This document shows positions 4,238 through 20,017 of a DNA stretch of 20,017 bases, piece by piece. A program made the position numbers and the translations under genes. The notes beneath the pieces were generated by a model. It ran no database searches. It had not been told where the DNA came from and saw only the letters and a program-made list of their open reading frames with translations. Source of the DNA: a virus. The number at the start of each line of letters is the position of its first letter. Position 1 is the first letter of the stretch. The stretch is from the IMG/VR virus record IMGVR_UViG_3300035204_000687, positions 1-20,017 of that record; one strand, 5' to 3'.

Positions 4238-6427
4238 TTAATGGTAATTTGCTAATTGAGTGATTCTCTCAATTTCTGCTTCAACGCCTGCTATGTTCTG
4301 TGCGTTTTCATCTGCTTTGGCTTTGATAGCCGCTACTATTTTTGATCTTGATTCGTTAATTGATTCAACTGGACCTACATCTTTGCCCCAATTTGGATTT
4401 GTTTCAGCATCTGCTTTTTGTTGTGCTATGCTTTGATCAATTCTTTCGTCTTTATCCATTTTTAATTTGTTAAAATTTTTAGAAAGATAAGCCATTGCTA
4501 CTTTTGAATCATTTGTTTTAAATGCTGATGCACCATCTTTATCTAATACGTCATAAACAGTTTTGCCAGTTTGATCATCTTTGTACATTGACACATAAGG
4601 TTTAATATCTTCAAATGTTACTTGTTCTCCGGCAAATGCTGGTTCTTTTTTCATTAGTTCTTTTTTACGCTGTATCAGTGCTCTTACAGTTTCAGGATCT
4701 TTAGATGTGTTTGGATCCAGTTGTATATTTTGTAATGCTTTTAATTTTTCTTCTCTATCTTTTTCATCTTTAGGTTCTCTAGCATATTCGTCTATGCCGT
4801 TAACCCAATTTTCAAATGCTTCTGTTGGCGAATGTGCTTTACCTTTAATATCTTTTTTAGGATTGTAATCTGCAGGATCGATTTCTTGTCTGTCTTTTAA
4901 ATATCTTTGTGCTAATTGTATTGCAATTTTTTTATTTTTGTTATGATCTACATCAGGCTTAAAGAATGGTTCACCTTCTTGGCTAACTGCATCTGCTACT
5001 CTAGAAGCAAAGTTTGCCACTCTATCTTCAGCACCTGTTTTTGTAAGCATTCTCGATGCTATATCTGATAAAATGTTTAGTAAACCTGAATTTTTACTTT
5101 CTTCTGCACCTTTATATTTTGTTACGTGAGATGGAACTTTTTTGTTTAACATAATTTTACTTTCAGGATCTGTTAAGAAACTTTGCACAACAGCACCGTG
5201 GTCTACTGCTGGTTCTACTGGTGCATCAATTGGTTCATCACCTGGATCTAATTCTTGTACTTGTGATTCACCTCGTAACATTGGATTAGAAGCTACAAAT
5301 TGTTTCCATTCAGGAGATGCTTCAAAATCATCCATACTTTTATATTTGTTTTGTTGTTTAAACATTAATTCTATTTGCGAACCATAATCACCAAGACTAA
5401 CTGCACTTTCTTCTTTTGGTGCTTCTAGTTCACTCATAATTTTATTAATAAGTGGAAGTGCATCTTCTACTCTGTTGTCTAAATTTTTAAGTGTAAATTT
5501 TTCTCTTAATTTGTTTACTGTTTCGTCGTCTAATATTTGTTCGTCTGCTGTTTTAAAATCTTTACTTGCATTTTCGTAATGAGATTGCTTTGATAAGTTT
5601 CTCATATACTCTCTTAAATTTTCTAATTTTAATTTAGTTTGTTCTATAATATCGCCTGCATTATCATTTAATTGGTCTTTGTGTGAAACGTATCTAGAAA
5701 AAGAATTTAATTTTGCGATATCTTCTGATGTTTGTATAATGTGTTCACCAAATTCATCATGTGGTCTTCCACCGTTAGCAACGTGTCTTGTCATTGCTCT
5801 TGCACCTGCTAGGTGTGTTAATGGATACTTAAATCTTTCACCGTCTTCGTTTTCAATGTATAATGATTCAATATGTCTTGATCTAGAACCAGGAATTTCT
5901 TCATCAACTTTTCCTGAGTGTCTAATTATTAATCTTGTTTTGTCTAAGTTTTCGTATGAACGTTTTGCTGTTCCTGTTAAACCCTCTTTAACTTCAACAC
6001 CTGCTAGTTTAGTAATTCTATTAAGTTCTTCTGACATGTCATCAGTATTTACCGTTTGATTCGTATCTGCGAGATTTTGATAATCCTGCTTCGTTAGGTT
6101 AGATTTAGTAATATCTCTTACGTCAAACGTTAAACTGTGTTCTACAGCGAAATCTTTAAGTTCTTTTAAAAACGCATACCATTCATCTTTTTCGCTTTCG
6201 TCTATTTTCTCAACTAAATCACGGTTGTAGTATACTTTCATATTTTCACCGTCTGCTATACTAATGCTTACTGAGCCAAATGTGTCTGAATCTGGTTGCC
6301 ATTCAAATTCAAAAAATACTGCTTCTGAGGCATCTGCTGTTGCACCACCATTTTCGTCGCCAATTTTAATGTTTGAAAACTGCGATCTAATTTTGTTAAA
6401 CAAGTCTTGTGATGTTTTAGGATTCAT
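4238..6427 (-). CDS. Large phage protein of unknown function (729 aa), LAGV-motif
   Basis: A 729-residue charged, mostly soluble protein without a recognised enzyme signature. An N-terminal globular region (about 34-105; FFEFEWQPDSDTFGSVSI, then KDEWYAFLKELKDFAVEHSLTF) precedes MSEELNRITKLAGVEV (about 131-146). The next segment (about 155-245) is rich in conserved-looking motifs (RLIIRHSGKVDEEIPGSRSR, LTHLAGARAMTRHVANGG). The second half is helical, with a Pro/Asp/Glu linker (about 385-410). The C-terminus ERITQLANYH echoes the LAGV motif. Similar proteins occur in marine T4-like phages; an internal head or other virion role is plausible but unproven. It starts six nt after an AATAAATA box formed over the gp17 stop, with no Shine-Dalgarno. 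Confidence 0.8.
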   Translation of the reverse strand: MNPKTSQDLFNKIRSQFSNIKIGDENGGATADASEAVFFEFEWQPDSDTFGSVSISIADGENMKVYYNRDLVEKIDESEKDEWYAFLKELKDFAVEHSLTFDVRDITKSNLTKQDYQNLADTNQTVNTDDMSEELNRITKLAGVEVKEGLTGTAKRSYENLDKTRLIIRHSGKVDEEIPGSRSRHIESLYIENEDGERFKYPLTHLAGARAMTRHVANGGRPHDEFGEHIIQTSEDIAKLNSFSRYVSHKDQLNDNAGDIIEQTKLKLENLREYMRNLSKQSHYENASKDFKTADEQILDDETVNKLREKFTLKNLDNRVEDALPLINKIMSELEAPKEESAVSLGDYGSQIELMFKQQNKYKSMDDFEASPEWKQFVASNPMLRGESQVQELDPGDEPIDAPVEPAVDHGAVVQSFLTDPESKIMLNKKVPSHVTKYKGAEESKNSGLLNILSDIASRMLTKTGAEDRVANFASRVADAVSQEGEPFFKPDVDHNKNKKIAIQLAQRYLKDRQEIDPADYNPKKDIKGKAHSPTEAFENWVNGIDEYAREPKDEKDREEKLKALQNIQLDPNTSKDPETVRALIQRKKELMKKEPAFAGEQVTFEDIKPYVSMYKDDQTGKTVYDVLDKDGASAFKTNDSKVAMAYLSKNFNKLKMDKDERIDQSIAQQKADAETNPNWGKDVGPVESINESRSKIVAAIKAKADENAQNIAGVEAEIERITQLANYH

Positions 6428-6433
6428 ATAGTG

Positions 6434-6441
6434 TATTTATT
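6434..6441 (-). promoter_or_regulatory. Late-type box AATAAATA before the 729-aa gene
   Basis: AATAAATA on the minus strand fits the T4-like late consensus NATAAATA exactly. It overlaps the TAA stop of gp17 and ends 6 nt before the ATG at 6427. A start at the usual distance would fall at or beside the initiation codon. Confidence 0.5.
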
Positions 6442-8035
6442 ATCCGTAGAAGTTTCCAAATATAGGCATTGGAGCGGTGTATTCTGAAGTTCTATCAGTC
6501 CATTTTTCGAATATTTTAGGGTCAAAATCCGCTAATACTTTCATCATACGTGTCATTAATAAACATGCACTTACTAGGTCATCGTGTTGTCCTGGTTTTG
6601 CTTTATAACTTAACCCTGTTGCAACAAAGTCTTTTAACTCAGAAATTAACAGTTTTGAATTGATTTGCATTTTACCACTTTCGACTAATTCTTTAAACTT
6701 TGTACAAGCATCAATTTTAAATTTAGCAGTTGTATTAAAGCCTCTTCTAAACTTACGTCTGTGTCCTTTTCTTATAGGTTCACTTAAAAACATACCCATA
6801 ATGTTCTCTTCACCCATATCCATTACTCTCATTAAAGCCGCTTCACCTATTGTATTATTTTCCATAGAATAAAATATTTGAGGTGTTGCTGTAGAATCTT
6901 TTTCAATAATTGTATCGTGTATATGTTTGTTAATACCTTGTAATATTCTCACTTGTTGATTCATTGGTGTCATATTATGTTGCCATTCACCTACTTGATC
7001 AAATGTAGGTAGTTCAAAAACTTGTATTGCGGCAAAGTCTCCACCTGTACCCATTGATGGATCTAAACTAACAAGATATGTCATTCCTGGTGTTGGACGT
7101 TTAAACCAACGTACTTGTCCTGTTGTTTCAACAGGTGGCACACCTTCCAAGTCTGCTAACGTTAAACTTGATATTAGTGTTTCATCAAAAATTAAAAATT
7201 CACATTCGTGTTCTCGTCTAAATCTTTCTTCACCAATTCTGGCCCTTTCTGTTTCTGCCCATGCTTCGTCTCTATCTGGATGTTCGTTCCAGTGTGCCTT
7301 CATTGCATAAAAACCGTTAGTACCTAAAATTTTGTCATTGCCATACTCGTCAAATCTTTTATTTGCTTCTTTCCATATCATAGCAAATTGATCTTCATCA
7401 CTGTTTGGTGTTGAAGTAATTAAACATTTACCTCCAGTTGACAATGTAGGAGACAGCGAAGTCCAAAACTCTTTTGCTTTTTCAGGTGGTTGTACGAACG
7501 CAAACTCATCACAATATATCATTGTTAAGGACATACCCCGTCCTGTGTTTTCTGTTGTAGTAGTTGCCATTATTTTTGAACCATTATCAAATTCTATACT
7601 GTTCCTGTTGTATTGTGTTACACCTGCTTTTATCCAACTTGGTAACATCTCATAAGCATAACGCACCCTTGACATGATATCTGATGCTCCTGCGTATTTG
7701 TGTGCGGCAATTAGTATTTGTGAATCTGGTTTAAACATGGCATACCATATTAGGTATCCTGATGCACAGGTTGTTTTTCCTGTTTGTCTTGGTAACATAG
7801 ATACTGAAAACCTGTGTGAATTATATGCTTCAATTAGCCTTTCTTGATAAGGATATGGAGTAAAATCCATTTCACCTTTAGTTGGATGTTGTATCTTCAT
7901 GAAGGTTTTCATAAAGAACAATGGACCAGTTTTATCGTCCATACACTGTTCAAGTTGTTCAACTTGTTCTTTAGTGTATTTGTGTTTCTTGTGCGCCTTT
8001 TTAATTTGGTCGCTATCTAATGATACATACGCCAT
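6440..8035 (-). CDS. 17: Large terminase subunit gp17 (packaging ATPase-nuclease)
   Basis: A 531-residue packaging motor that pumps DNA into proheads and cuts concatemers. ATPase domain: Walker A in MLPRQTGKTT (lysine 87), Walker B with catalytic acid in MIYCDEFAF (D176, E177), and coupling motif ITSTPN (about 207-211). RNase H-fold nuclease domain: SLDPSMGTGGDF (D325), FYSMENNTIG (E392), and GQHDDLVSA (D485/D486), the three acidic sites of the family. Length is a little below T4 gp17 (610). The ATG at 8035 has no Shine-Dalgarno but has an ATTAAATA box 7 nt upstream. It is separated from gp16 by three genes. Confidence 0.97.
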   Translation of the reverse strand: MAYVSLDSDQIKKAHKKHKYTKEQVEQLEQCMDDKTGPLFFMKTFMKIQHPTKGEMDFTPYPYQERLIEAYNSHRFSVSMLPRQTGKTTCASGYLIWYAMFKPDSQILIAAHKYAGASDIMSRVRYAYEMLPSWIKAGVTQYNRNSIEFDNGSKIMATTTTENTGRGMSLTMIYCDEFAFVQPPEKAKEFWTSLSPTLSTGGKCLITSTPNSDEDQFAMIWKEANKRFDEYGNDKILGTNGFYAMKAHWNEHPDRDEAWAETERARIGEERFRREHECEFLIFDETLISSLTLADLEGVPPVETTGQVRWFKRPTPGMTYLVSLDPSMGTGGDFAAIQVFELPTFDQVGEWQHNMTPMNQQVRILQGINKHIHDTIIEKDSTATPQIFYSMENNTIGEAALMRVMDMGEENIMGMFLSEPIRKGHRRKFRRGFNTTAKFKIDACTKFKELVESGKMQINSKLLISELKDFVATGLSYKAKPGQHDDLVSACLLMTRMMKVLADFDPKIFEKWTDRTSEYTAPMPIFGNFYG

Positions 8036-8042
8036 AGTGTAG

Positions 8043-8050
8043 TATTTAAT
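8043..8050 (-). promoter_or_regulatory. Late-like box ATTAAATA before gp17
   Basis: ATTAAATA on the minus strand differs from NATAAATA at one position and ends 7 nt before the gp17 ATG. It is weaker than the best boxes here but sits at the same place relative to the gene. Confidence 0.35.
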
Positions 8051-8052
8051 GT

Positions 8053-8076
8053 AAAAAATGTGTTAGGAAAACTAAC
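8053..8076 (-). terminator. Weak terminator-like hairpin after the cold-shock gene
   Basis: GTTAG (8076-8072, including the csp stop), loop TTTTC, CTAAC (8066-8062), then ACA and a run of six U (8058-8053) in minus-strand RNA. The stem is only five AU-rich pairs and an alternative pairing with an upstream CTAAC exists, so any termination would be partial. Confidence 0.3.
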
Positions 8077-8290
8077 TGTTTAAGTTAGGCCTTTGTAAAT
8101 TAACAGCACAAGGACCTTTAGCCGCTATATCTACATCAAATGTCACTTGTTGACCTTCTTTTAGACTATCCATACCGGCTGTTCTAACTGCTGATATATG
8201 AACAAATATATCTTTTTCGTCGTCTTCTCTTTTAATAAATCCAAATCCTTTGGTCGGATTAAACCATTTAACTTTTCCGTTTATACTCAT
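8072..8290 (-). CDS. Cold-shock domain protein (CspA family)
   Basis: A complete 72-residue cold-shock domain, [35 protein letters not shown], with RNP1 (KGFGFIK, residues 14-20) and RNP2 (DIFVHI, 27-32). These OB-fold proteins bind single-stranded RNA and DNA and melt structure in mRNA. Length matches bacterial CspA (about 70). There is no Shine-Dalgarno; the 23 bp before the ATG are AT-rich. It sits between an acidic structural-type gene and the large terminase. It was probably acquired from a bacterial host at some time; base composition does not stand out. It may help translation of phage mRNA or act in nucleic acid handling; neither is shown. Confidence 0.93.
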
Positions 8291-8313
8291 GTTTGATTGT
8301 TTTGAAAAATAAT

Positions 8314-9504
8314 TTATTTTGCTTCTTTATCTTTAACGGCTTTTTTCATAGATTCTTTTTCGTTACCGTCTTTATCCATATCTAAAAAATCAGGTTTTGC
8401 TTTTCCTTCAGCAACTTTTGCCGCTTCTTGATATGCTTGTTTAAAACTTTCGTATTGTGTTCTTAAACTGTTTGCTAAATCTTCTTCAGTAATTTTATCC
8501 TCAACTGCCATTGGATTGTCGCCTGGATATTCTTTTCTATATTGATTTTTTTGTCTGTTCAAACCACCTGAATGTACATTTACTAAAGTGTCTACGTCCA
8601 TAGTTTTTGGTTCGTCTTTTTCACGATCGCCTGGAGAATTAGCAAACGTCTCCGCCGCTTTTTCTTCATCAGGTGCAGTCATCATGTCACGCATTTTAGC
8701 CATATCATTTGATCCAATTGCATCATCGTCTGCACCACATACGTGTCCCGGCTCACCGTGTTCTGGATTTTCACCTGCTTCTGGCTCACCACCAATCATA
8801 GATGCATCAACAGGTTTAACACCTGCAAGTTTCATAATTTGCATAAACATACCTGCTTCTTCTGGAGAATCAGTAGTTACTGTTATTGCTTCGTTTATAG
8901 ATTTTTTATCTTCTGTTGTCATTGTTTCTGTATTTAGTTCGTTTGACTCTGCTTGATCAGGATCTAATTCTTGTGATTTATACTCGTCTACGGCTTTCAT
9001 TAATACATCTTGGTCTAATTTGTTTAAAACACCAGCCATCATTCCTTTTTGTTCCATACTAAACTGGATATCTAATTTAGCACCCATATCAAAAAACATT
9101 TTAGTTCCCATAGGTGTCATTTCTTCTTTTACTTGTGGTTCAGTTGTTTGTTGTTCAGTACTTTGCATATCTGGTTCCATTTCATGTTTTCTTTTGCCTA
9201 AGTCGTCAAATTTTTCATCAACCATTCTCGCCGCTTCTTCGTATTCGTAAGATCTAGGCATTTCTGATCTTGACGCTTTTCTTTTTAAATCAGCAATCAC
9301 TTGTGATTTTGGCATTGTTAAATCGCCATCAGGACCGTCTAAGTATTCGTCTATGGCATCTGTTGCACCAATATGTATATCTGATATTCCACCAACATTT
9401 TCTACTGGATTCGTTCTTTCAACATTTTCTACAGCGTCTTTTACTAGTTCTGGTTTAGTTTCTGCGATTTCTTTAAGTCGTGTTAAAACGTCAATCATTT
9501 CCAT
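8314..9504 (-). CDS. Acidic virion-type protein with LAGV and DxDxDG motifs (396 aa)
   Basis: A 396-residue Met-, Glu- and Asp-rich protein with no enzyme signature. Features in order: [16 protein letters not shown]; a helical region (about 65-110); [31 protein letters not shown] (about 201-231); a disordered acidic stretch (about 235-300); and a C-terminus with [19 protein letters not shown] (about 371-389), where DMDKDG looks like the start of a Ca-binding loop but lacks the usual glutamate at position 12. The LAGV and KDG-KKA motifs recur in marine T4-like phage structural proteins. The site INE/A (205/206) fits the T4 gp21 prohead-protease consensus. Translation starts at ATG 9504 with AAGGAG located in the end of the preceding gene. 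Possible head-internal protein; function not established. Confidence 0.75.
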
Positions 9505-9506
9505 GA

Positions 9507-10109
9507 TTATTTTCTCCTTACCGGATCAGGATGTGGATTAGTAGGTGTTGTTAAAGGTGAATTTGCTTTTTCATCTTCTTTAGTTGTAATATTTTCTTTT
9601 TCTTTTGGCTGATCTTTATTAACTTCTCTGTCTTTTAATAATTCTTTTAACAAACTCATGTTTGCTTCGTGTGAATGAAATTCTTTTGCATCTACTTTTG
9701 GTGCATCTTTGTATTCAATGTCTTGTAATTTGTTTTTGTATTCTGATTTTCCAGCAACTGCCATTTGTTCTTGATACTCTTCACTTGGTTCATTTGGTTT
9801 TCTAACAACAATGTGTGTTGGTGGAATGTTCATATGTGTGCCTAAATATTCTTTCATCTCTATAGAAGATGCTGGATAATTTGTTGTAACATCAAAAATT
9901 GTTACTTCTTCGTTGCTTAATTGTGGGAAATCTAAAGGCATAGATTGTATCGGAGTTTTCTTTCCTGCTGACATTTTAGCAACTTCAAATTTGCCTAATG
10001 CAGTTTCCATTTTTGTTGCAAAATCTTTGCGGTTAATATCACCCGCTATTTTAATTTTGTAGTCATACGACTTTGCTGATTCTGTTAGGTAGTCTTTGAA
10101 TGTGCTCAT
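9507..10109 (-). CDS. Possible prohead internal protein with capsid-targeting-like N-terminus
   Basis: A 200-residue protein beginning MSTFKDYLTESAKSYDYK. This N-terminus resembles the T4 capsid-targeting sequence of internal proteins (IPIII starts MKTYQEFIAEA). LTE/S at 10/11 fits the gp21 prohead-protease cleavage rule (I/L-x-E before A, G or S). A compact domain follows (about 16-125: IKIAGDINRKDFATKMETALGKF, PASSIEMKEYLGTHMNIPP), then a charged disordered tail ending in PNPHPDP-like repeats and VRRK. I chose ATG 10109 because a TTG at 10115 would overlap the late-like box; the ATG is 6 nt after ACTAAATA and lacks a Shine-Dalgarno. Position between gp16 and gp17 agrees with a head role, which is inferred. 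Confidence 0.72.
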   Translation of the reverse strand: MSTFKDYLTESAKSYDYKIKIAGDINRKDFATKMETALGKFEVAKMSAGKKTPIQSMPLDFPQLSNEEVTIFDVTTNYPASSIEMKEYLGTHMNIPPTHIVVRKPNEPSEEYQEQMAVAGKSEYKNKLQDIEYKDAPKVDAKEFHSHEANMSLLKELLKDREVNKDQPKEKENITTKEDEKANSPLTTPTNPHPDPVRRK

Positions 10110-10115
10110 ATGCAA

Positions 10116-10123
10116 TATTTAGT
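10116..10123 (-). promoter_or_regulatory. Late-like box ACTAAATA before the CTS-like gene
   Basis: ACTAAATA matches the TAAATA core of the late box. It contains the TAA stop of gp16 and ends 6 nt before ATG 10109, where no Shine-Dalgarno is seen. One mismatch to NATAAATA makes promoter function uncertain. Confidence 0.35.
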
Positions 10124-10640
10124 CTTTTTTAAGTAGTTTCTTCATTAACTCATTACGGTCTGATATAACAAATCCGTCTTGTTCTTCTAAAACAGGGCCG
10201 TCTTTACCACCCTGGTCTATTTTCATTTTTTTAAGTTGTAATTCCACCATTTTTAACTTCTTATCTATTTTAGAGCCTTTAGCATCAATGGCATTACGTA
10301 ACATAGTACTTGCAACCTCAAATATACGTCCAGAATAACGTGAATCTACGTTCATTCCTAAATCCATTAAATTCTTATAACTTTCTTCTGCTTCTACAGC
10401 CAACTTATCTAATTCTAAATCTGATAGTTCACCTAGTCCTTTTACTTGTGGTAAAGCGGCCGCAACTTTGTCAAATTCAGCATAAGTTTTTTCTAAATTT
10501 TTCGCTGTTTGTGGATCTAAGTTTTTTGATTTACCGTTTACTTTGTTTTTATTTTCTTTTAATTTTTCTTTAGAATCTACTTCTTTAAATGCTTCTTTGA
10601 CATTTGGTAAATTTAAAATATCTTCTAGTTTCTTTGTCAT
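10119..10640 (-). CDS. 16: Small terminase subunit gp16
   Basis: A 173-residue protein matching the plan of T4 gp16 (164 residues), which recognises DNA and stimulates the gp17 motor. A variable N-terminal helical region leads to a central helical, coiled-coil-forming part (about 70-145; NVDSRYSGRIFEVASTMLRNAI resembles the T4 PRHMEVFATLMGQM segment). The C-terminal FVISDRNELMKKLL corresponds to the T4 segment VFMGSPTELMDEI. Assignment rests on this pattern plus location near gp4 and gp17, as direct identity is low. ATG 10640 is 8 nt after the gp4 stop, with a TAAATA core 5 nt upstream and no Shine-Dalgarno. Confidence 0.75.
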   Translation of the reverse strand: MTKKLEDILNLPNVKEAFKEVDSKEKLKENKNKVNGKSKNLDPQTAKNLEKTYAEFDKVAAALPQVKGLGELSDLELDKLAVEAEESYKNLMDLGMNVDSRYSGRIFEVASTMLRNAIDAKGSKIDKKLKMVELQLKKMKIDQGGKDGPVLEEQDGFVISDRNELMKKLLKKD

Positions 10641-10645: not shown

Positions 10646-10653
10646 TATTTACT
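10646..10653 (-). promoter_or_regulatory. Late-like box AGTAAATA before gp16
   Basis: AGTAAATA on the minus strand includes the TAA stop of gp4 and ends 5 nt before the gp16 ATG. It has one mismatch to NATAAATA. The spacing is the same as in the perfect boxes before gp13 and the tube-fold gene. Confidence 0.35.
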
Positions 10654-12854: not shown

Positions 12855-12859
12855 AATGT

Positions 12860-12867
12860 TATTTATA
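12860..12867 (-). promoter_or_regulatory. Perfect late box TATAAATA before the tube-fold gene
   Basis: TATAAATA matches the T4 late promoter in all eight positions and ends 5 nt before ATG 12854. It lies directly after the gp19 terminator, so this operon has its own start point. Confidence 0.65.
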
Positions 12868-12872
12868 GCCAC

Positions 12873-12899
12873 AAAAAAAGCGCCTATAAAGACGCTTTT
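12873..12899 (-). terminator. Intrinsic terminator after gp19
   Basis: Minus-strand RNA forms a nine-pair stem AAAAGCGUC with GGCGCUUUU (12899-12891 and 12884-12876; one U-G pair) around a six-base loop, followed by three further U (12875-12873). It is placed 29 bp after the gp19 stop and just before the next late promoter. This is the clearest terminator in the window. Confidence 0.85.
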
Positions 12900-12927
12900 C
12901 CTGTTATAAATGCTAATCTAAACCTGA

Positions 12928-13558: not shown

Positions 13559-13566
13559 TATTTATC
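13559..13566 (-). promoter_or_regulatory. Late box GATAAATA before gp19
   Basis: GATAAATA fits NATAAATA in the 23-bp gap between gp18 and gp19. It ends 10 nt before the ATG, and a GGAGA Shine-Dalgarno follows at once, so a start at the normal distance would trim the ribosome site. Confidence 0.45.
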
Positions 13567-13571: not shown

Positions 13572-16500
13572 TTAGTTCCCCAATTTTGCTATTTCTCCTG
13601 TGTTTTTGATTCTCAACGGTATGTATATAAATTCAACTGATTTCACAGGCTCAATCGCGATATCTACATAAAGTTCGTTTCTATCTATTCTAGTAGAAGT
13701 GTTGTTTGTGTCATCACAAACTACTAAAAAGTCATATAATGCTCTTTGTCCAACAAGTTCTAACAAGAACGATTCAATTGCTTGTTTAATCTCATTTCTT
13801 GTTATTTCGTCATTTGGTTCAAAGATAAACGGTTTAGCAAGAAGATCTAATTGTGTTCTTAGATATACTGATAATCTTGCTACGTTTATTCTGTCCAATG
13901 CGGAAGTTGCTGTAGTTTTAGTTAAGTTACCAAAGTTTACAATTCCTGCACCTGAGAAGAAAGTAATTGGATTTACTTTAACCTCATGCATTGAATCTCT
14001 AATAGATTCTGTTACCGATATTGTTTTAAACTCGCCTGTAGCAGAATCAATGTAACCAACCGCAGTAGCATTATCAACAACACCTCTTCTTGTACCTGCT
14101 GGTGCAAACCAAGGGAAAGCAACGTTATCGTTGTTAGCCAAAGTTCTTAACATCATGTGTGATGGTGGAACAACAATATTGCCTCCTGAGTTGTCTGTTG
14201 TTAATCCTGACGGATAAAACATTCCTAAATGATCACTTGAACTTATTAAACCATCTTCGTTGTTATCAGTAGCACCTGCTGAGTTATTTGCCCAATTTTG
14301 AATTGCAGTTGCCGTTCCTTCCAATCTCAACGGTGAATCACCTACAATAAATGCAGTGTTGTTTCTGTCAGTGTTTAAGTCAATCATGTTTTGTATTGCT
14401 TCTGGATAACCTGGACAAGCAATAACGTTAAATCCTCTTTGATCTTCTCTAATTGCTTGGTTAGTATCTATTTCTGATTTCAATTGCTGTACAACAACTT
14501 GTCTTTGTGATTTTCTTCCAAAACATCCAGAACCATCAGGCTTGTTAGCCGATTTAGTAACCCATCTGTCTGGATAGTAACCACCAACTGTTTCGTTGCT
14601 GTATCTAATGTTACCTAATCCGCTTGATCCCGAACCTGGATATTTTGTAGTAGTAATATGACTGTTTTTGTATTCTTTTACATTGTATCCGCTTCTTCTA
14701 GTATTCCAAAGCATTATACCTTGTGGGTAAAGTGCTGGATCTGGAGCATCTGGATCCAAGAAACCATCACTTAATAAATCTTTAATACTTGATGCATCAC
14801 CAGCCTGAGAACTGTTATTTCCACTTCTTTCTGCCACTGTATGCCATCTAGCATCTGCAAATAAAATACCATCTTCTGTTGTTTGATCTGCTTTGTCAAC
14901 TAATTCCCAAGCCGCTCCAGTTGTTGTAACTGCTACTTGGTTTGCAGTATTAGTTGAACTTAAAGTAGCCGCTGTATTGTATTTGTAAAGTTTTGGATAG
15001 TTTTCTAAATCACTTGTATCAATCCATAAGTCATTAATAACAAGAGGTGTTCCATCTGACTGCGTAGTTGGTGCAGTTGCACTAAATTGTGGACCATTTG
15101 GATCTGTTGCTGAGTATGCTGTTTTGTAACCTACCCAAGTTGAACCGTTGTGTGACATGATGTCCGCTTCATCAACCTTAGTGTCATACCATAATGTACC
15201 GTCTGTTGGTTCTTCACTTGGCTGACTTGTTGAAGCAGTGTAACTTAAACGTTTCCAGTTTGTAGCAATTACTTCGTTACCTACTGTTGAGTCTTCTGAA
15301 TCACCTGTTGGTGCAACATATAAGTTGGCAAGTTTTGTTGTTGAAAGTGCATCATATCCACCGTAAGTATGTGCTGTTGATGTACCAAAACCAGCATCAT
15401 CAAGTGGAGTACCTGATGTGTTGTTCATTCTAAATTCACCACCTAATTTGTGTTTAATTTGAATAGCACCTGTGTACTCACCTTCAGTTATAACTGATGC
15501 AGTTAAGTTCGTGAATCCAGCGGCTGTGAATGCTGTAACAAAATCATCTGCATCACCCAAAGTCGAACCATCTCCAGAGGTCATAGTAACTGTTTTAGCA
15601 GTATCAAGTGCTTCTTGATTTTTTAATGACTCTCTGACAGTGAACGTTTCGTTTGCTGTGAAACTTGGGAACGTAGTTTTTGAAGATATAATTGTTTCTC
15701 CGCCTTCATATCTAAAGATTTGAAAGTCACCAACGTTTGGTGTTGAATCTGATTGTCCGTCTACAGTTTCTTCAGTAATATTATATTGAGTATATAAATC
15801 ACCAGCACTTAACGCCGTTCCACCATTAGTTGGATCTAAATTATAAATCGCTGAATGGTTTGTTGCATAAAGTGGTGCACTTACAGTACTAAAAGCTGAA
15901 CTTCCTGTACTATAAAGTTTTGCAACTATACTAGCACCTGAGTTAGCAGTTGATGTTTTAAACCAAACAGAACCATTAGGTCTGTTTTCATCTGCTGTTT
16001 TCCAAGTTGGTCTACTAGTGTGTTTTGCTTGTAAGAATTTTGTACCGTTATAAGTCCCGGCAGTAATTCCTAAAGAAGCAAGTAATCCTGTGCTTTCTTC
16101 AATTCTAATTGTGTTGAAACCTGCTGTTGAATCACCAAATCCCAAACCATTGTGGAATATTTCTAAGTTTCCTGTTGTTGAATTTACTGATGCAGTAACT
16201 CCTGCCGCGTTGGCAGTGTTAATAGCTGTTGCAACATCTGATAATGCTGTACCACCAGATGTGACCTCTATACCGTTAACCTGCATTTTGTGACCACTTG
16301 TTACTGTCGTTCCTGAAGCAACTGAAAATACTGGTAACGTTAAATGCCAAGCACTTGAACCTACATGTACCCAAGTGTTGCTTGAAGATTTTTTGTAAAT
16401 CTTGTTGCTAACGTGAGTTGTGTTGATAGCATAGTCACCTTGTGAACCAATTGATGTTTTTGGTGCACCTGTTGAACTGTTACCTACTAGTTCAGATACT

Positions 16501-17000
16501 TTAGTAATCAATGTCGGTGTTTTTTCTGTAAATTTTTGATTTGTTTGAGACCACTCAAATATACCATAACTGCTTGATGCAAGGTCAAACCAGTATGTAC
16601 CATCTGCTGGGTCTGCTGTTGGAGCCGAAGCACTACCTATTAAATCTGATGTGTCTACATTTACTCTTAATACATATGCTCTGTTGGCTATACCTAAAAA
16701 TGAATATGCCGCTTGTAAGCCGTACTCATTTAATTCATATCCATGTAATGGATTGCCTGAAGCATCTGAGTAAAATTTTGGATCTCCAAATGTTTCTGTT
16801 AATTCTCTTTGTGATGAAACCAAGTATGCTGTGTTAGCGTTTGCAGTTGTTGTTCCTGCCGCTGTTCCAGATCCGGCTCCATTATTTTTGTCTTGACTAG
16901 ATGCTACTATAAAAAGAGGAGTTGTACCCGCATCTGATGGTACGTAAAAACTTTCGTTTATTATCGAAACGTCTACTCCTGGTGATGTTAAAGTTGCCAT
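13572..17000 (-). CDS. 18: Contractile tail sheath protein gp18, very long form
   Basis: A 1142-residue sheath protein, far longer than T4 gp18 (659). The N-terminus (MATLTSPGVDVSIINESFYV, then ELNEYGLQAAYSFLGIANRAYVLRV) and C-terminal third (about 755-1142; YPQGIMLWNTRRSGYNVKEY, FNVIACPGYPEAIQNMIDL, and RRGVVDNATA) carry the sheath core. The end (about 1020-1140: NFGNLTKTTATSALDRINVARL, ELYVDIAIEPVKSVEFIYI) is the conserved part that links subunits. Between about 120 and 750 lie Ser/Thr/Gly-rich domains with repeated W-x-D-T motifs, probably surface decoration. ATG 17000 has an AAGGAGA Shine-Dalgarno and a TATAAATA box about 40 nt upstream. Sheath contraction drives the tube through the host envelope. 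Confidence 0.93.
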   Translation of the reverse strand: MATLTSPGVDVSIINESFYVPSDAGTTPLFIVASSQDKNNGAGSGTAAGTTTANANTAYLVSSQRELTETFGDPKFYSDASGNPLHGYELNEYGLQAAYSFLGIANRAYVLRVNVDTSDLIGSASAPTADPADGTYWFDLASSSYGIFEWSQTNQKFTEKTPTLITKVSELVGNSSTGAPKTSIGSQGDYAINTTHVSNKIYKKSSSNTWVHVGSSAWHLTLPVFSVASGTTVTSGHKMQVNGIEVTSGGTALSDVATAINTANAAGVTASVNSTTGNLEIFHNGLGFGDSTAGFNTIRIEESTGLLASLGITAGTYNGTKFLQAKHTSRPTWKTADENRPNGSVWFKTSTANSGASIVAKLYSTGSSAFSTVSAPLYATNHSAIYNLDPTNGGTALSAGDLYTQYNITEETVDGQSDSTPNVGDFQIFRYEGGETIISSKTTFPSFTANETFTVRESLKNQEALDTAKTVTMTSGDGSTLGDADDFVTAFTAAGFTNLTASVITEGEYTGAIQIKHKLGGEFRMNNTSGTPLDDAGFGTSTAHTYGGYDALSTTKLANLYVAPTGDSEDSTVGNEVIATNWKRLSYTASTSQPSEEPTDGTLWYDTKVDEADIMSHNGSTWVGYKTAYSATDPNGPQFSATAPTTQSDGTPLVINDLWIDTSDLENYPKLYKYNTAATLSSTNTANQVAVTTTGAAWELVDKADQTTEDGILFADARWHTVAERSGNNSSQAGDASSIKDLLSDGFLDPDAPDPALYPQGIMLWNTRRSGYNVKEYKNSHITTTKYPGSGSSGLGNIRYSNETVGGYYPDRWVTKSANKPDGSGCFGRKSQRQVVVQQLKSEIDTNQAIREDQRGFNVIACPGYPEAIQNMIDLNTDRNNTAFIVGDSPLRLEGTATAIQNWANNSAGATDNNEDGLISSSDHLGMFYPSGLTTDNSGGNIVVPPSHMMLRTLANNDNVAFPWFAPAGTRRGVVDNATAVGYIDSATGEFKTISVTESIRDSMHEVKVNPITFFSGAGIVNFGNLTKTTATSALDRINVARLSVYLRTQLDLLAKPFIFEPNDEITRNEIKQAIESFLLELVGQRALYDFLVVCDDTNNTSTRIDRNELYVDIAIEPVKSVEFIYIPLRIKNTGEIAKLGN

Positions 17001-17039
17001 TTTACGTGTTCTCCTTGCAAGTTATACGTATACTAGAGT

Positions 17040-17047
17040 TATTTATA
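17040..17047 (-). promoter_or_regulatory. Perfect late box TATAAATA before gp18
   Basis: TATAAATA on the minus strand lies 39 nt before the gp18 ATG, leaving room for a normal leader with an AAGGAGA ribosome site. It is the conventional late promoter of the window. The rest of the 116-bp divergent gap (17001-17116) holds a CCTATATAGG palindrome (17090-17099) and the plus-strand box of the next gene. Confidence 0.75.
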
Positions 17048-17102
17048 TTATCATACTGTTTTTACGATAAAATTTACCATTTTTTGGTACCTATATAGGC
17101 GA

Positions 17103-17110
17103 CGTAAATA
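17103..17110 (+). promoter_or_regulatory. Late-like box CGTAAATA before the plus-strand Zn gene
   Basis: CGTAAATA keeps the TAAATA core and ends 6 nt before ATG 17117. It is divergent from the gp18 box about 55 bp away. It has one mismatch to NATAAATA, and a weak promoter is all that can be claimed. Confidence 0.35.
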
Positions 17111-17116
17111 ACATAT

Positions 17117-17476
17117 ATGAACAAAACTATACGACCTTTGTGTGTGGAATGTAAAGCAAAGCCTAGAGCATATGCTTATCAGAAAGCAGGTAAAATATAC
17201 TGGCGTAGATTATGTGATACTTGTAATCGCAAAAAAGCGAAAAAAAAGGTTGGGGGAGTTACATATCTAGAACGGTCAGGATACAAAAAACTAAAAAAAT
17301 GTGAACTGTGTGGCTTTAAGGCACATAACTCATTACAATTAGATGTGCTGTTTGTAGATGGCAATTTAAGAAATACTACAGATACTAATTTAAAAACTGT
17401 TTGTGCTAATTGTCAAAGATTAAGCAGTGTGCGTAGACTCGGATGGCGTATTGGTGATCTTATTGCTGATAATTAA
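17117..17476 (+). CDS. Zinc-ribbon protein with a degenerate HNH-like domain
   Basis: A 119-residue basic protein with four CxxC pairs (CVEC 9-12, CDTC 33-36, CELC 62-65, CANC 96-99), enough for two structural zinc sites. The second half (CELCGFKAHNSLQLDVLFVDGNLRNTTDTNLKTVCANCQ) follows the HNH layout of C-x2-C, D-G-N and C-x2-C. The residues normally HH before DGN are LF-V here and the last histidine is Gln, so nuclease activity is unlikely. A DNA- or RNA-binding role is more plausible. It stands alone on the plus strand among minus-strand genes, with no Shine-Dalgarno, and its last 57 bp overlap the dNMP kinase gene tail to tail. I recall similar proteins in marine T4-like phages. Confidence 0.8.
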   Translation: MNKTIRPLCVECKAKPRAYAYQKAGKIYWRRLCDTCNRKKAKKKVGGVTYLERSGYKKLKKCELCGFKAHNSLQLDVLFVDGNLRNTTDTNLKTVCANCQRLSSVRRLGWRIGDLIADN

Positions 17477-18022
17477 ATCAACTTTAGCAAATAGTTCTTC
17501 TTTAGTTCCGTTGTTATCAATAACAAAATCAAAAGTGCTATCTAACCAGTCCCATTCAGATTGATGAGCACCACGTTTTTTCATATCTTCTTTTGTAGGT
17601 AATTTGCCTCTTGTAACACATATAATTTTACCACCGTGTGCTCTTATAGTTTTTACTTCATTAACAAATCTTGTGTCTGAAATAACAGTGTTTTGACCTT
17701 TATATCTTCCTATACAACTATCTACCCATATAGCATCATACATTTGGCCACGCATTACCTCAGTGCCAAAATATTGTAATACCCATCTTGGTGTAACTGG
17801 TTTGTTAAACTTTTCACTCCAAAATTTATCCGGTTGTTCTCGCCATTCTCTACTTTCAGATGTGTTTCCTTCCAACATTTCTCTATCCCAATTAAACATT
17901 GATGCTACTGCATCTTTTAAACTTTTAGCAAAACTATCTCTAATGTATCCGTGTTTTTCTACCAGTCTATTTGCAACTGTATCTTTTCCAGAACCAATTA
18001 GTCCTACAATTCCTATTAGCAT
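17420..18022 (-). CDS. 1: Deoxynucleoside monophosphate kinase (gp1-like)
   Basis: A 200-residue P-loop kinase that probably phosphorylates dNMPs for phage DNA synthesis, as T4 gp1 (241 residues) does. Walker A is GLIGSGKDT (about 7-15). A later region has WVLQYFGTEVMRGQMYDAIWVD, then the SDTRFVNEV segment (about 115-123), like T4 PDTRQDHE. The C-terminal TKEELFAKVDLIISNK matches the T4 SLEELFSKI ending. The remaining tail (about ITNTPSESTHTA) lies antisense to the Zn-ribbon gene and is not seen in T4. ATG 18022 has no Shine-Dalgarno; a sigma70-like promoter ends 6 nt before it, unlike the neighbouring late-type genes. Confidence 0.88.
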   Translation of the reverse strand: MLIGIVGLIGSGKDTVANRLVEKHGYIRDSFAKSLKDAVASMFNWDREMLEGNTSESREWREQPDKFWSEKFNKPVTPRWVLQYFGTEVMRGQMYDAIWVDSCIGRYKGQNTVISDTRFVNEVKTIRAHGGKIICVTRGKLPTKEDMKKRGAHQSEWDWLDSTFDFVIDNNGTKEELFAKVDLIISNKITNTPSESTHTA

Positions 18023-18028
18023 TTATTG

Positions 18029-18057
18029 ATTATACTATTTTTTGAGACGTTTTTCAA
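18029..18057 (-). promoter_or_regulatory. Sigma70-type promoter of the dNMP kinase gene
   Basis: TTGAAA (18057-18052), 17 bp, then TATAAT (18034-18029): 11 of 12 consensus positions. The -10 box ends 6 nt before ATG 18022, so the normal start would be at or near the first codon. The -35 box lies within the end of the 61-residue gene. Confidence 0.6.
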
Positions 18058-18220
18058 TCTCTAATTTGGCTTCTTTTACCGCACCTAATATCTTTTTTCG
18101 TATGTCTAATTTTTTATTTTTTAATGCACTTATAGACATATTTTCTAAATCAGTAACAATTTGTTCTAAATCATCTATATCACATTCAGAATATTTTTTA
18201 TAACGATTGTCGCTTTTCAT
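18035..18220 (-). CDS. Small helical protein of unknown function (61 aa)
   Basis: A 61-residue highly charged protein, MKSDNRYKKYSECDIDDLEQIVTDLENMS, with a basic second half ending EIEKRLKK. Heptad-like spacing in IVTDLENM and KEAKLEIEKRL suggests a short coiled coil. No known family is recognised. It lies in the gap between gp13 and the dNMP kinase gene, with a TTTAAATA box 7 nt before its ATG. Its frame fills the gap neatly and its codons look like its neighbours', so I treat it as real but uncertain. Confidence 0.6.
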   Translation of the reverse strand: MKSDNRYKKYSECDIDDLEQIVTDLENMSISALKNKKLDIRKKILGAVKEAKLEIEKRLKK

Positions 18221-18227
18221 ATTCTTT

Positions 18228-18235
18228 TATTTAAA
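18228..18235 (-). promoter_or_regulatory. Late-like box TTTAAATA before the 61-aa gene
   Basis: TTTAAATA on the minus strand has one mismatch to NATAAATA and ends 7 nt before ATG 18220. No Shine-Dalgarno is present except a poor AAAG. Confidence 0.3.
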
Positions 18236-18251
18236 ATGATATTATTGTGAA

Positions 18252-19013
18252 TTAACCAATAACAAAACTGTGAGGTGATCCACCTTCTGCGAAATTGCCT
18301 ATTTCTAGATCTAATCTTTCCATTTCAGCAAGTCCTTGCTGTTTAAGTTCTGCACCATTTAATGTAGTACCACCTTGTGGTCCTGCAATAGTATTAAACT
18401 TACCTCGTGCTTCACCTAGCATAGTTTTTGATACTGCTAAAGTGTAATCTCTTATCCAAGGTTTAGAGTAGATATCTTTGAACAATGTAATATCAGGTCT
18501 AAAATTGTCTGTATGCATTAAAACAGTTTCAGCATCTGATCTTGGACGTTGAGTAATTGTTAATTTTTTTGTTGCTACATCAAAATGAAATTGTATAAAT
18601 GAACCAAACAATTTACCTACTAATTCTTGATAAGAAGCAAAAGCAAAGTAAGTGGCCAAACCACCTGTAGCACCTGCTCTTAACAAATATGTATTAGTGT
18701 AGGCTAAATTGAATGGTTCAAATAATGTACCGCCTTCTCCACCTTCAGTTCTGGAACCCACTGTACGTCTAAATAATTTTCTTACATTAATTACTTCATC
18801 TGGTAAAATATATGTGTTTTGATTTTCTTTTAATTCTAAAAAAGCATAAGATTCTTCAACAGCATTTGAACTACGTTGTCTATACCGATTAATAGCTCTT
18901 TCTAAAGCCGTTTGGTAGTGTTTTGGGTCTAATTCTACGTCAATCATACCCTCACCGAGATTATTTTTTACGTAATCAAATATTTCCTGTTGACCTGTTT
19001 GAAGTTCTGACAT
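18252..19013 (-). CDS. 13: Neck protein gp13
   Basis: A 253-residue homologue of T4 gp13 (309), part of the neck that closes the portal end and receives the tail. Recognisable parts are FDYVKNNLGEGMIDVELDPKHYQTALERAINRYRQRSSNAVEESYAFLELKENQNTYILPDEV and the C-terminal KPWIRDYTLAVSKTMLGEARGKFNTIAGPQGGTTLNGAELKQQGLAEMERL. I set the start at ATG 19013 (MSELQTG): it is 5 nt after a perfect TATAAATA box. The in-frame ATG at 19073 would cross the divergent gp14 start and add a hydrophobic segment foreign to the family; ATG 19019 lies in the box. Adjacent to gp14, its usual partner. Confidence 0.85.
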   Translation of the reverse strand: MSELQTGQQEIFDYVKNNLGEGMIDVELDPKHYQTALERAINRYRQRSSNAVEESYAFLELKENQNTYILPDEVINVRKLFRRTVGSRTEGGEGGTLFEPFNLAYTNTYLLRAGATGGLATYFAFASYQELVGKLFGSFIQFHFDVATKKLTITQRPRSDAETVLMHTDNFRPDITLFKDIYSKPWIRDYTLAVSKTMLGEARGKFNTIAGPQGGTTLNGAELKQQGLAEMERLDLEIGNFAEGGSPHSFVIG

Positions 19014-19018
19014 ACACA

Positions 19019-19026
19019 TATTTATA
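19019..19026 (-). promoter_or_regulatory. Perfect late box TATAAATA before gp13
   Basis: TATAAATA on the minus strand, 5 nt before ATG 19013 of gp13, inside the short divergent gap with gp14. Transcription beginning at the usual T4 distance would start at about the A of the ATG. Confidence 0.65.
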
Positions 19027-19040
19027 GGTTTGATGTATGC

Positions 19041-19048
19041 AATAAATA
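19041..19048 (+). promoter_or_regulatory. Late box AATAAATA before gp14
   Basis: AATAAATA on the plus strand fits NATAAATA and ends 8 nt before ATG 19057. It is back to back with the gp13 box 14 bp away. Confidence 0.6.
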
Positions 19049-19056
19049 TGTATGAT

Positions 19057-20017
19057 ATGCCAAGATTATCCATTTTTAAGCCAGAAAAAGGTGCTGACTA
19101 TAAATTCTTCGATCGGAACATTCGTGAGATGTTTACTGTGGGAGGCACCGATTTACACTTCCACAAATATCTAGGACCTTACGACCAAGGTGATACAAAC
19201 AAGGATGGTGAAGCATCTCCAACACAACCGCAGTATTCTGGAGACAGTTTAAATGAAAGAACTATACAAGATTTACTATTTTTAGAAAACAGAGACAGAA
19301 AATATGATGCAGATATCTATGTTATTAGAGGTATCTACAATGTACAAGATATAGACTTCAATCTAAGTCAGTTTGGTATGTTTTTACAAAATGATACTCT
19401 ATTTTTAACTGTGCATATGAATGATGTTGTTGAAAGATTAGGCAGAAAACCTATGAGTGGTGATGTAATTGAATTTCCACACATGAAAGAAGATTACAGT
19501 TTAGATGAATCTATACCAATTGCACTAAAAAGATATTATGTTATTGAAGATGTAAACAGAGCGGCAGAAGGATTTTCACAAACATGGTGGCCACACTTGT
19601 TAAGATTAAAACTTAAATCAATGGTTGACTCACAAGAGTTTAGAGATATTATTGGTGATGCTACTACTACAGGTTCGTTGGCTAGTTATATGTCAACTTA
19701 TAACAGAGAAAAAACAATCAGTGATCAAGTTTTAGCACAAGCAGAAGCAGATGCACCTAAATCAGGATTTAATTACAAACAATACTATGTTGCACCGATT
19801 GATGAAAGAGGCAATATTAGAACAGACAATATAAATTCAACAGAAAGAATAAGTTCAGATAAAAATATTAATGCAGTAATAGATACACCGGCGGCTTCTC
19901 ATTATGGTTTCTATTTAGACGGTGACGGTATTGCACCTAATGGAAATCCTGCAGGTTTTGGAATATCTTTTCCAAATGCAAATGTTGATAAAGGAGATTA
20001 TTTCTTGAGAACAGATT
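19057..20017 (+). CDS. 14: Neck protein gp14 (partial, runs off right edge)
   Basis: The frame is open for 320 residues and continues past the edge. The start MPRLSIFKPEKGADYKFFDR is followed by DLHFHKYLGPYD, ERTIQDLLFLENRDRKYDADIYVIRGIYNVQDIDFNLSQFGMFLQNDTLFLTVHMND, GDVIEFPHMKEDYSLD and RYYVIEDVNRAAEGFSQTWWPHLLRLKLK, which track T4 gp14 (256 residues: SPDLIFGED, FSNFGMQVQDEVTL, GDLIYFPMD, FEINWVEPYDPFYQLG). gp14 with gp13 forms the neck that links head and tail. This form is longer than T4 and close to cyanophage versions. No Shine-Dalgarno is present; the late box is 8 nt before the ATG. It points away from the main minus-strand block. Confidence 0.88.
   Translation, partial: MPRLSIFKPEKGADYKFFDRNIREMFTVGGTDLHFHKYLGPYDQGDTNKDGEASPTQPQYSGDSLNERTIQDLLFLENRDRKYDADIYVIRGIYNVQDIDFNLSQFGMFLQNDTLFLTVHMNDVVERLGRKPMSGDVIEFPHMKEDYSLDESIPIALKRYYVIEDVNRAAEGFSQTWWPHLLRLKLKSMVDSQEFRDIIGDATTTGSLASYMSTYNREKTISDQVLAQAEADAPKSGFNYKQYYVAPIDERGNIRTDNINSTERISSDKNINAVIDTPAASHYGFYLDGDGIAPNGNPAGFGISFPNANVDKGDYFLRTD

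Follow-up and report, generated by a model that had tools for sequence, protein, structure and literature searches.

Late-promoter-like boxes abutting start codons point to leaderless late mRNAs in T4-type phages

Introduction

The late promoters of bacteriophage T4 carry the box TATAAATA, which sits at -13 to -6 and is read by gp55-RNA polymerase with gp33 and gp45. T4 boxes, which serve virion genes among other targets, peak 21-30 nt upstream of the start codon and leave room for a leader with a Shine-Dalgarno sequence (SD). The same box, in the form NATAAATA, and a related gp55 are found in cyanophages S-PM2 and Syn9, where the boxes lie ~19-38 nt upstream. Leaderless mRNAs are known in bacteria and phages, lambda cI being an example; they have no SD, start with AUG, and have a promoter about one helical turn upstream. 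Neither T4-type late promoters nor leaderless messages are new, but among the matches listed in the open-licence literature we found no account of a set of late genes in T4-like phages that joins the two.

Here, we analyze a 20,017-nt stretch of viral DNA (positions 1-20,017 of IMG/VR record IMGVR_UViG_3300035204_000687; hereafter, the window). It has the TAAATA core in common with T4 and the cyanophages, but its boxes abut the ATG. In their SD absence, AUG start, and promoter distance the window genes resemble known leaderless cases; they differ in that a late promoter of the phage-sigma type abuts many virion genes and in that orthologues alternate with a far-box form. The layout occurs in a group of T4-type bacterial viruses that have not been cultured.

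Results

Nine genes of the window have a TAAATA box next to the start codon

A preliminary description of the window had listed nine genes without an SD in which TAAATA ends 5-8 nt before the ATG; the spacers were recounted and SDs judged by eye, and all nine hold (Table 1). The four fuller matches that it named, at gp14, gp13, the tube gene, and the 729-aa gene, do read ATAAATA, and TATAAATA is present at two of them. It was also right that gp18, gp32, and the 396-aa gene are SD-led (AAGGAG, AGGAGG, and AAGGAG, respectively) and have no abutting box. The window contains 23 copies of TAAATA on both strands, nine of them being the abutting boxes; at some sites the motif overlaps the TAA stop of the preceding gene. 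The second tail-tube gene starts at an ATG (12854) internal to a 468-aa ORF that opens with GTG. Spacers of 8 nt at the gp14-like gene and of 5 nt at gp13/Ad2 recur in relatives G001, G003, G004, and G010.

Table 1. Boxes and related elements in the window
Element	Position	Strand	Spacing and gene
ATAAATA box	19042..19048	+	8 nt to ATG (19057), gp14-like virion gene
ATAAATA box	19019..19025	-	5 nt to ATG (19013), gp13/Ad2
TAAATA box	18228..18233	-	7 nt to ATG (18220), 61-aa gene
TAAATA box	17105..17110	+	6 nt to ATG (17117), HNH-like gene
ATAAATA box	12860..12866	-	5 nt to ATG (12854), second tail-tube gene
TAAATA box	10646..10651	-	5 nt to ATG (10640), 173-aa gene
TAAATA box	10116..10121	-	6 nt to ATG (10109), phrog_14802 virion gene ("CTS-like")
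TAAATA box	8043..8048	-	7 nt to ATG (8035), gp17/TerL
ATAAATA box	6434..6440	-	6 nt to ATG (6427), 729-aa virion gene
TATAAATA, contrast (classical leadered layout)	17040..17047	-	39 nt upstream of gp18, plus SD AAGGAG
ATAAATA, contrast	13559..13565	-	10 nt upstream of first tube gene, SD GGAG directly after
Terminator-like hairpin with U run	12873..12900	-	ends 18 nt upstream of second tube ATG
Sigma70-type promoter TTGAAA-17-TATAAT	18029..18057	-	6 nt to ATG (18022), dNMP kinase; 11/12 consensus positions

Family matches refine the earlier gene labels. The gp13 gene is Ad2 (phrog_211). The gene called gp14 matches phrog_11591 (virion structural), the CTS-like gene matches phrog_14802 (virion structural; searched from one codon past its ATG), and the plus-strand Zn gene is HNH-like. 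The gene labeled gp16, of 173 aa, matches phrog_16202, a family of unknown function, and small terminase weakly (E = 0.0085). Six of the nine box genes match virion, packaging, or connector families; the others are the HNH-like gene, the 173-aa gene, and the 61-aa gene, which has no family. Eleven box genes of G004 were scanned, of which two matched virion or tail families, three matched families of unknown function, and six had no match (the scans covered 50 chosen proteins; as far as was checked, all but three of the 21 box genes either were scanned or have a homologue among the window genes that were). Among the genes examined, the abutting box was absent at gp32, uvsX, DNA polymerase, gp46, exonuclease, and the clamp-loader-like ATPase, and SDs are retained at sheath, tube, and capsid genes. 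By these assignments the box adjoins virion genes and not replication genes, as would be expected of a late promoter. Box genes of window-type phages start with ATG in 87 of 88 cases and once with TTG (GTG and TTG were also allowed); AUG starts and the lack of SDs are what leaderless messages would be predicted to have.

The boxes exceed chance and are conserved in relatives

When every ATG of the window was counted, in frame or not, a procedure that needs no annotation, TAAATA ranked first of 1859 hexamers at 5-8 nt (13 occurrences versus 1.6 expected, P = 2e-8), and it ranked first of all hexamers in each of five long relatives as well. At called genes the box occupies this distance in 8 of 21 cases, whereas 100 dinucleotide shuffles gave 0.29 cases on average and never more than 2 (the ninth gene, gp14, runs off the record and was left uncalled); composition-matched hexamers likewise fail to reproduce the excess. 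The genome-wide surplus at 5-8 nt that the preliminary description had proposed as a test is present in both the hexamer ranking and the shuffles. The mode of the TAAATA-to-start distance is 5-8 nt in the window and the five relatives, and ~20-35 nt in T4, the cyanophages, PA5oct, and Atu_ph07. The forward pattern outnumbers the reversed one used as control in all 12 records from relatives, which are not independent samples (G009 shares many sites with G010 and was not counted beside it).

In distinct upstream sequences of relatives, seven of the genes kept the abutting placement in 237 of 242 cases and had an SD in none: the 61-aa gene (box at 6-8 nt, 13/13), the HNH-like gene (5-6 nt, 19/19), the second tail-tube gene (28/28), the 173-aa gene (44/49), the phrog_14802 gene (38/38), gp17/TerL (7-8 nt, 51/51), and the 729-aa gene (5-7 nt, 44/44). 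Identical upstream sequences were counted once; the set excludes matches that begin beyond residue 8 or lie too close to the end of a contig, and four rows without an ATG (125-aa gene) were left unclassed. An SD was found at gp18 in 18/18 distinct relatives; at the first tube gene, all 20 sequences have both an SD and a box, the latter 10-14 nt from the start. SD absence by itself is weak evidence, given that 59 of the 142 called genes of G004 have neither box nor SD; in the same phage, when the first six candidate starts of each box gene were considered, 4 of the 21 genes had an SD-like string at one of them.

A late sigma factor and the layout in described phages

A sigma factor of the gp55 family (phrog_12791) was detected in relatives G001 (E = 2.6e-86) and G004 (E = 6.2e-84). 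It was not found in the records of 8 of the 10 relatives, all ten being classed as linear and often fragments, nor was it seen within the 20-kb window; the clamp family phrog_223 gave no match in six records, where the control was silent too. The likeness of the box (a TAAATA core at 9/9 genes, ATAAATA at four), together with gp55 in relatives, suggests promoters of the T4 late type.

The nearest isolates are PA5oct-type jumbo phages (Arenbergviridae; TerL 54.5%, gp32 47%), which have the gene order neck, dNMP kinase, sheath, tubes, terminase in common with the window. PA5oct itself, the nearest cultured relative, is unlike the window, with 3 box genes among 378 (shuffle mean 7.2). At gene starts no TAAATA excess was found in T4, PA5oct, Syn9 (one gene with a box at 5-8 nt), S-PM2 (none), or Atu_ph07; in the last, a weak annotation-free excess (35 versus 23.8, rank 92) is gone at gene starts (5/605, shuffle mean 6.4). 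Pelagimyophage HTVC008M, listed as Kyanoviridae, encodes a T4-type gp55 and has TAAATA at 5-8 nt at 14 genes (11 at exactly 5 nt), including Ad2/gp13, compared with a shuffle mean of 3.0 and a maximum of 8; its box is often ATAAATAGT. All 11 box genes in the two annotated stretches examined have the ATG next to the box as their deposited start. These genes include Ad2, end protector, head closure, tube cap, tail completion, and baseplate wedge, and three are non-virion by name (2OG oxygenase, cyclase, and CsgF). In the annotation-free test of HTVC008M, SD hexamers come first and TAAATA is 25th.

Counts of ATAAATAN5-8ATG over its reversed control were 15/2 in HTVC008M, 17/6 in Atu_ph07, 4/3 in T4, 3/3 in Syn9, 5/6 in P-SSM2, 3/6 in S-PM2, 11/13 in PA5oct, 2/2 in Phosso, 4/4 in CBB, 4/3 in XaC1, and 5/6 in Vibrio 2.275. 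Mosig (10/3), Melnitz (7/4), KVP40 (6/3), and two relatives of HTVC008M (10/3 and 1/0) were assessed by forward and reversed pattern counts alone. The pattern in HTVC008M raised the question of a link to alphaproteobacterial hosts; this was not borne out, TAAATAN5-8ATG and its reverse numbering 1/2, 2/9, and 0/1 in phiM12, Cr30, and phiM9, respectively.

Related loci place the box at two distances

In 66 PA5oct-type loci the box-to-start distance is bimodal, with 128 sites at 5-8 nt, 5 at 9-12 nt, and 83 at 18-22 nt (loci shorter than 8 kb were omitted, which kept 66 of 80 in this count and 69 of 80 in another). SDs accompany 0/128, 0/5, and 42/83 of these sites, respectively; the other 41 far sites have none by the pattern used, and far-box second-tube genes have an SD in none of 15. 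Sixteen dereplicated PA5oct-type sites, or 17 when the window-type set is added, have a spacing of 4 nt; these and the first tube gene, with its more distant box and SD, fall outside a rule of 0-3 nt leaders.

TAAATA is preceded by GA at 32/126 abutting, 50/156 far, and 17/329 background sites; window-type phages most often have AA or AT, rather than GA, on the 5' side of the box. A pyrimidine-purine step occurs at +5/+6 after the box in 32/40, 39/47, and 23/26 sites with spacers of 6, 7, and 8 nt, respectively (background 60%), and in 30/40 T4 boxes. Orthologous genes switch between the abutting and the far class: on a TerL tree (quick method without a mixture model, one run, no shuffled control), at least 3, 3, and 7 changes were counted for three genes. 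The orthologue set comprised the 80 loci plus G001, G003, G004, G007, G010, PA5oct, and Atu_ph07, and drops matches that start after residue 40 or have no usable ATG.

A T run ends 18-21 nt upstream of the second tube ATG in 28/28 distinct sequences. The hairpin was folded from the window sequence (12855-12900; -12.9 kcal/mol, z = -3.18), and in the 28 relatives the T run was scored; a simple terminator scan of the window did not list the hairpin that the fold shows. Two further terminator look-alikes were spotted by eye. At dNMP kinase, TATAAT lies 5-7 nt upstream of the ATG in 16 of 17 relatives, with TTGAAA 17 nt upstream of it in the window; since TATAAT adjoins the ATG, a different promoter element appears to be placed in the same way.

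Weighing leaderless mRNAs against the alternatives

The preliminary description left two options, leaderless late mRNAs or TAAATA as a start signal replacing the SD. Sequence evidence favors the former, because the box in PA5oct-type relatives has two discrete distances with a similar 5' flank, because orthologues switch between them, because a T run and, in the window, a hairpin adjoin the second tube start, because TATAAT likewise abuts dNMP kinase, and because two relatives encode a gp55-family sigma factor.

The boxes could instead be promoters whose abutting gene is translated mainly from upstream read-through mRNA, the layout being genome compaction and the short mRNA serving downstream genes. 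Many box genes do lie in co-directional clusters, and the first tube gene has, besides its near box, an SD that could serve a read-through message. We nevertheless regard this as improbable: spacing is bound to the ATG, with the trough at 9-12 nt (5 sites versus 128), divergent pairs such as gp13 and gp14 carry one box per gene, so that read-through from behind cannot supply both, and abutting genes offer no SD to a read-through message.

It is quite improbable that TAAATA is itself the translation start signal, read on a longer transcript instead of an SD, although the tight spacing at SD-less genes would suit such a signal and about half of the far sites are SD-less too. Sites at 18-22 nt carry a similar extended element and are often SD-led; bimodality and class switching also disfavor a ribosome signal, as do the match to a known gp55 promoter and the lack of the box at the replication and metabolic genes examined. 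At the tube gene, the T run and terminator-like hairpin leave room for a leader of ~18 nt, and dNMP kinase has the same build with TATAAT. Chance AT-rich matches combined with start-codon choice, a caveat raised earlier that the G+C content of 34% and the overlaps with TAA stops might favor, are very improbable and were rejected, since shuffles and composition-matched hexamers do not yield the pattern, the annotation-free test puts TAAATA first, relatives conserve the boxes, equally AT-rich T4 and PA5oct do not have it, and deposited HTVC008M starts agree with the box-abutting ATG (11/11).

Discussion

We consider it probable that T4-type late promoters abut the start codons of these genes and yield leaderless late mRNAs. 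The box positions, their excess and conservation, SD absence, bimodality, flank, class switching, T run, and gp55 homologue are read from sequence; we infer box activity, the start site, the mode of ribosome initiation, and the dosage interpretation below. A gp55-family sigma factor would read the boxes as T4-type late promoters. With the box so near the gene, transcription should start at the start codon or up to ~3 nt from it, a placement that assumes T4 geometry. Transcripts of box genes would then have a 5' UTR of 0-3 nt, and their translation would not use an SD; initiation would presumably be of the 70S or 5'-terminal-AUG kind. At the same loci the box may alternatively lie at a greater distance, in many cases with an SD-containing leader.

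Abundant virion proteins (sheath, tube, and major capsid) would be made from SD-led messages, and low-copy ones (neck, terminase, and similar) from leaderless messages; the copy numbers behind this interpretation are those of T4. We suggest, tentatively and with somewhat less than even confidence, a dosage code in which one late promoter is used at two set distances, far with an SD for high output and abutting for low-copy products, genes switching by movement of the promoter, and in which PA5oct-type phages and pelagimyophages acquired the layout independently. If so, leaderless initiation by host ribosomes would be essential to virion assembly in these phages.

HTVC008M, an isolate with a cultured host, shows this layout at 14 genes and makes the claim testable. 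Orthologue pairs with abutting and far boxes offer a natural experiment on leader function. If leaderless late mRNAs are indeed made, promoter position can be used to call start codons, and a large number of uncultivated phages would rely on SD-independent initiation to assemble their virions.

Abutting TAAATA Boxes in the Window and Its Relatives

The preliminary description had named nine genes in which a TAAATA core, like that of the T4 late promoter box, ends just before the ATG and no Shine-Dalgarno (SD) sequence is present. This observation is confirmed: in the window, which is the entire 20,017-base virus record, the box abuts the ATG without an SD in 9/9 named genes, with a spacer of 5, 6, 7, or 8 nt. 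The isolates nearest to the window TerL (54.5%) and gp32 (47%) are PA5oct-type jumbo phages, and the gene order neck, dNMP kinase, sheath, two tube genes, head closure, terminase is common to the window and PA5oct.

Positions of individual features in the window and in the cultured pelagimyophage HTVC008M
Feature	Sequence	Position	Strand	Remarks
Cold-shock-protein gene	window	8072-8290	-	adjoins TerL; usable match in only 6/80 close relatives
Second tube gene start	window	12854		ATG within longer GTG ORF
Sheath gene	window	13572-17000	-	1142 aa, versus about 880 aa in PA5oct
HNH-like gene	window	17117-17476	+	between sheath and dNMP kinase, opposite in direction to neighbours; overlaps 3' end of dNMP kinase; initial codons variable among relatives
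dNMP kinase, promoter-like sequence	window	18022-18057	-	TTGAAA-17-TATAAT, ending 6 nt before ATG
End-protector and head-closure genes	HTVC008M	18916-18943		divergent, 26 nt between start codons, one box each

We retrieved 80 close relatives by TerL (90-94% identical) and counted distinct upstream sequences. A box at 5-8 nt was found in all of those for gp17 (51/51), the 729-aa gene (44/44), the phrog_14802 gene (38/38), the second tube gene (28/28), the HNH gene (19/19), and the 61-aa gene (13/13), and in 44/49 for the 173-aa gene; an SD was found in 0/242 sequences of these seven genes. The spacer varies in sequence and, inside 5-8 nt, in length, and at some genes the box is kept despite unrelated upstream DNA. 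For gp13 and gp14, which gave no usable rows among the 80 loci, long records of window-type relatives were used instead: the box stands at 5 nt (gp13) and 8 nt (gp14) in G001, G003, G004, and G010. The genes put forward as a contrast lack an abutting box and mostly have an SD (gp18 18/18, gp32 31/31, and the 396-aa gene 29/34), and other genes without an abutting box have an SD in 20/20 (first tube) and 14/27 (uvsX) sequences. The absence of an SD is not peculiar to box genes, because head closure (SD 3/49), the 125-aa gene (3/45), and dNMP kinase (0/17), all without TAAATA at 5-8 nt, mostly lack both.

Abutting Boxes Exceed Chance Expectation

All hexamers with an ATG 5-8 nt downstream were counted on both strands, without use of gene calls. 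TAAATA ranked first in the window (13 hits versus 1.6 expected) and likewise in each of five long relatives: G001 (23 hits among 60 TAAATA sites, 4.4 expected), G003 (23/50, 3.7), G004 (23/59, 4.6), G010 (21/61, 4.4), and G007 (14/31, 2.5). At gene starts, an abutting box was present in 8 genes of the window and in 16 (G001), 19 (G003), 21 (G004), 11 (G007), and 13 (G010) genes of the relatives; shuffled sequences averaged 0.3 to 1.6 such genes, with highest counts between 2 and 6. The comparison of box-to-ATG distance with a shuffled background, proposed in the preliminary description, reveals an excess in the window and all five relatives, and chance matches due to AT-richness do not explain the pattern. 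In the same gene-start test T4, PA5oct, Syn9, S-PM2, and Atu_ph07 have 2, 3, 1, 0, and 5 such genes, all below shuffle means; their boxes lie about 20-35 nt before the start, whereas window-type boxes abut the ATG. Atu_ph07 (400 kb) gave a weak excess (35 versus 23.8 expected) in the annotation-free test only.

In HTVC008M, TAAATA precedes the ATG by 5-8 nt at 14 genes, and by exactly 5 at 11 of these, versus a shuffle mean of 3.0 and maximum of 8. Annotation was compared for 11 of the 14, in two stretches, and all 11 deposited starts coincide with the ATG next to the box (end protector, head closure, tube cap, baseplate wedge, wedge initiator, Ad2, tail completion, tape measure, CsgF, 2OG oxygenase, and cyclase). 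For Melnitz, a phage related to HTVC008M, 15 late promoters are given in a paper where the word "leaderless" occurs once (PMC9004378).

Two Box Distances in PA5oct-Type Loci

The loci most informative on promoter versus ribosome signal are 66 PA5oct-type loci (TerL 53-59% to PA5oct; sites dereplicated). Here the TAAATA-to-start distance is bimodal, with peaks at 5-8 nt (128 sites, 0 SDs) and 18-22 nt (83 sites, 42 with SD), and both classes are present within single loci. Other distances held 21 sites (0-4 nt, 16 of these at 4 nt), 5 sites (9-12 nt, 0 SDs), and 17 sites (13-17 nt, 12 with SD). GA directly 5' of the core occurs at 32/126 abutting and 50/156 far boxes and at 17/329 background sites. 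That TAAATA is a ribosome signal instead of a promoter is disfavored, since such a signal would be out of place 20 nt ahead of an SD, while a promoter could occupy either distance. Far boxes and SDs are not joined by a clean rule: by the patterns used, 41/83 sites at 18-22 nt and 15/15 far second-tube genes have no SD.

In a wider orthologue set, abutting and far boxes number 20 and 31 (9-60 nt) for the phrog_14802 gene, 22 and 15 for the second tube gene (7 boxless), 54 and 15 for the 729-aa gene (8 boxless), and 41 and 10 for TerL (33 boxless). A TerL tree requires at least 3 (phrog_14802), 3 (second tube), and 7 (729-aa) changes between the abutting and far layouts. Of 31 TerL genes without box or SD, six were read upstream of the start (L246, L259, L270, L290, L294, and L304), and all six show ATAAGTA with a 5-nt spacer to the ATG; this is a possible variant box, and TAAATA counts may therefore be underestimates.

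Predicted Start Sites and Probable Leaderless mRNAs

Of ten relatives' records, two encode a late sigma factor of the gp55 family (phrog_12791; G001, E 2.6e-86; G004, E 6.2e-84), and in eight the search gave no match. A gp47-like gene, identified by eye, adjoins the sigma factor gene, as does, in G004, an SbcC/gp46-like gene. Six of ten proteins scanned at 40.9-61.9 kb of G004 (L094, L095) match a radical-SAM family (phrog_14086), an odd cluster for a phage.

The T4 late box sits roughly one helical turn upstream of +1, with its first base at -13 (PMC2988020). By this geometry, transcription of the genes with abutting boxes would begin at the sixth base past the box, leaving 5' UTRs of 0-3 nt. 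Transcription start sites typically have a pyrimidine-purine step; one is present at +5 or +6 after 32/40 (spacer 6), 39/47 (spacer 7), and 23/26 (spacer 8) abutting boxes, compared with 60% of 344 background TAAATA; the figures for far sites and T4 boxes are 121/156 and 30/40. In 28/28 sequences the second tube ATG is preceded by a T run whose end lies 18-21 nt away; in the window this run closes a hairpin (-12.9 kcal/mol, z -3.18), so there is scant space for a leader. By eye, one further gene each in G004 and HTVC008M resembles a terminator-box-ATG arrangement. Judging from the sequence, leaderless late mRNA is the best explanation for the abutting boxes and quite probable, our confidence being slightly reduced because half of the far sites have no recognisable SD.

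A putative host-type promoter at dNMP kinase is positioned like the abutting late boxes, its TATAAT being kept at 5-7 nt before the ATG in 16/17 relatives. In G001, a sigma70-type TATAAT box likewise abuts the portal ATG. Given these two cases, the leaderless layout may extend beyond late promoters.

The AR9 authors note that leaderless transcripts are common in phages (PMC5312081), the cyanophage late promoter motif is NATAAATA (PMC2984593), TATAAAT is the motif searched for in PMC3037559, and "leaderless" appears in a reference title of the Mosig paper (PMC7892664). Among the matches listed from an open-licence library, there was no recognisable description of leaderless late mRNAs from gp55-type promoters.

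Genes Assigned to the Two Layouts

In the wide orthologue set, a far box with an SD precedes the sheath gene in 26/27 and the first tube gene in 43/46 cases, with abutting boxes in 0; gp32 (73/74) and uvsX (48/53) have an SD and no abutting box. At the major capsid gene, three window-type relatives with the start read show AAGGGG without a box, a fourth match without ATG being set aside. Abutting genes that have a family include neck, terminase, gp14-like, second tube, and other virion genes; in G004, 9 of 11 box genes scanned match either no family or a family without known function. In T4, the abundant virion proteins include sheath, tube, and capsid, and the scarce ones include neck and terminase. 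With abundant proteins SD-led and scarce ones abutting, by analogy with T4, protein dosage may depend on which of the two layouts a gene has.
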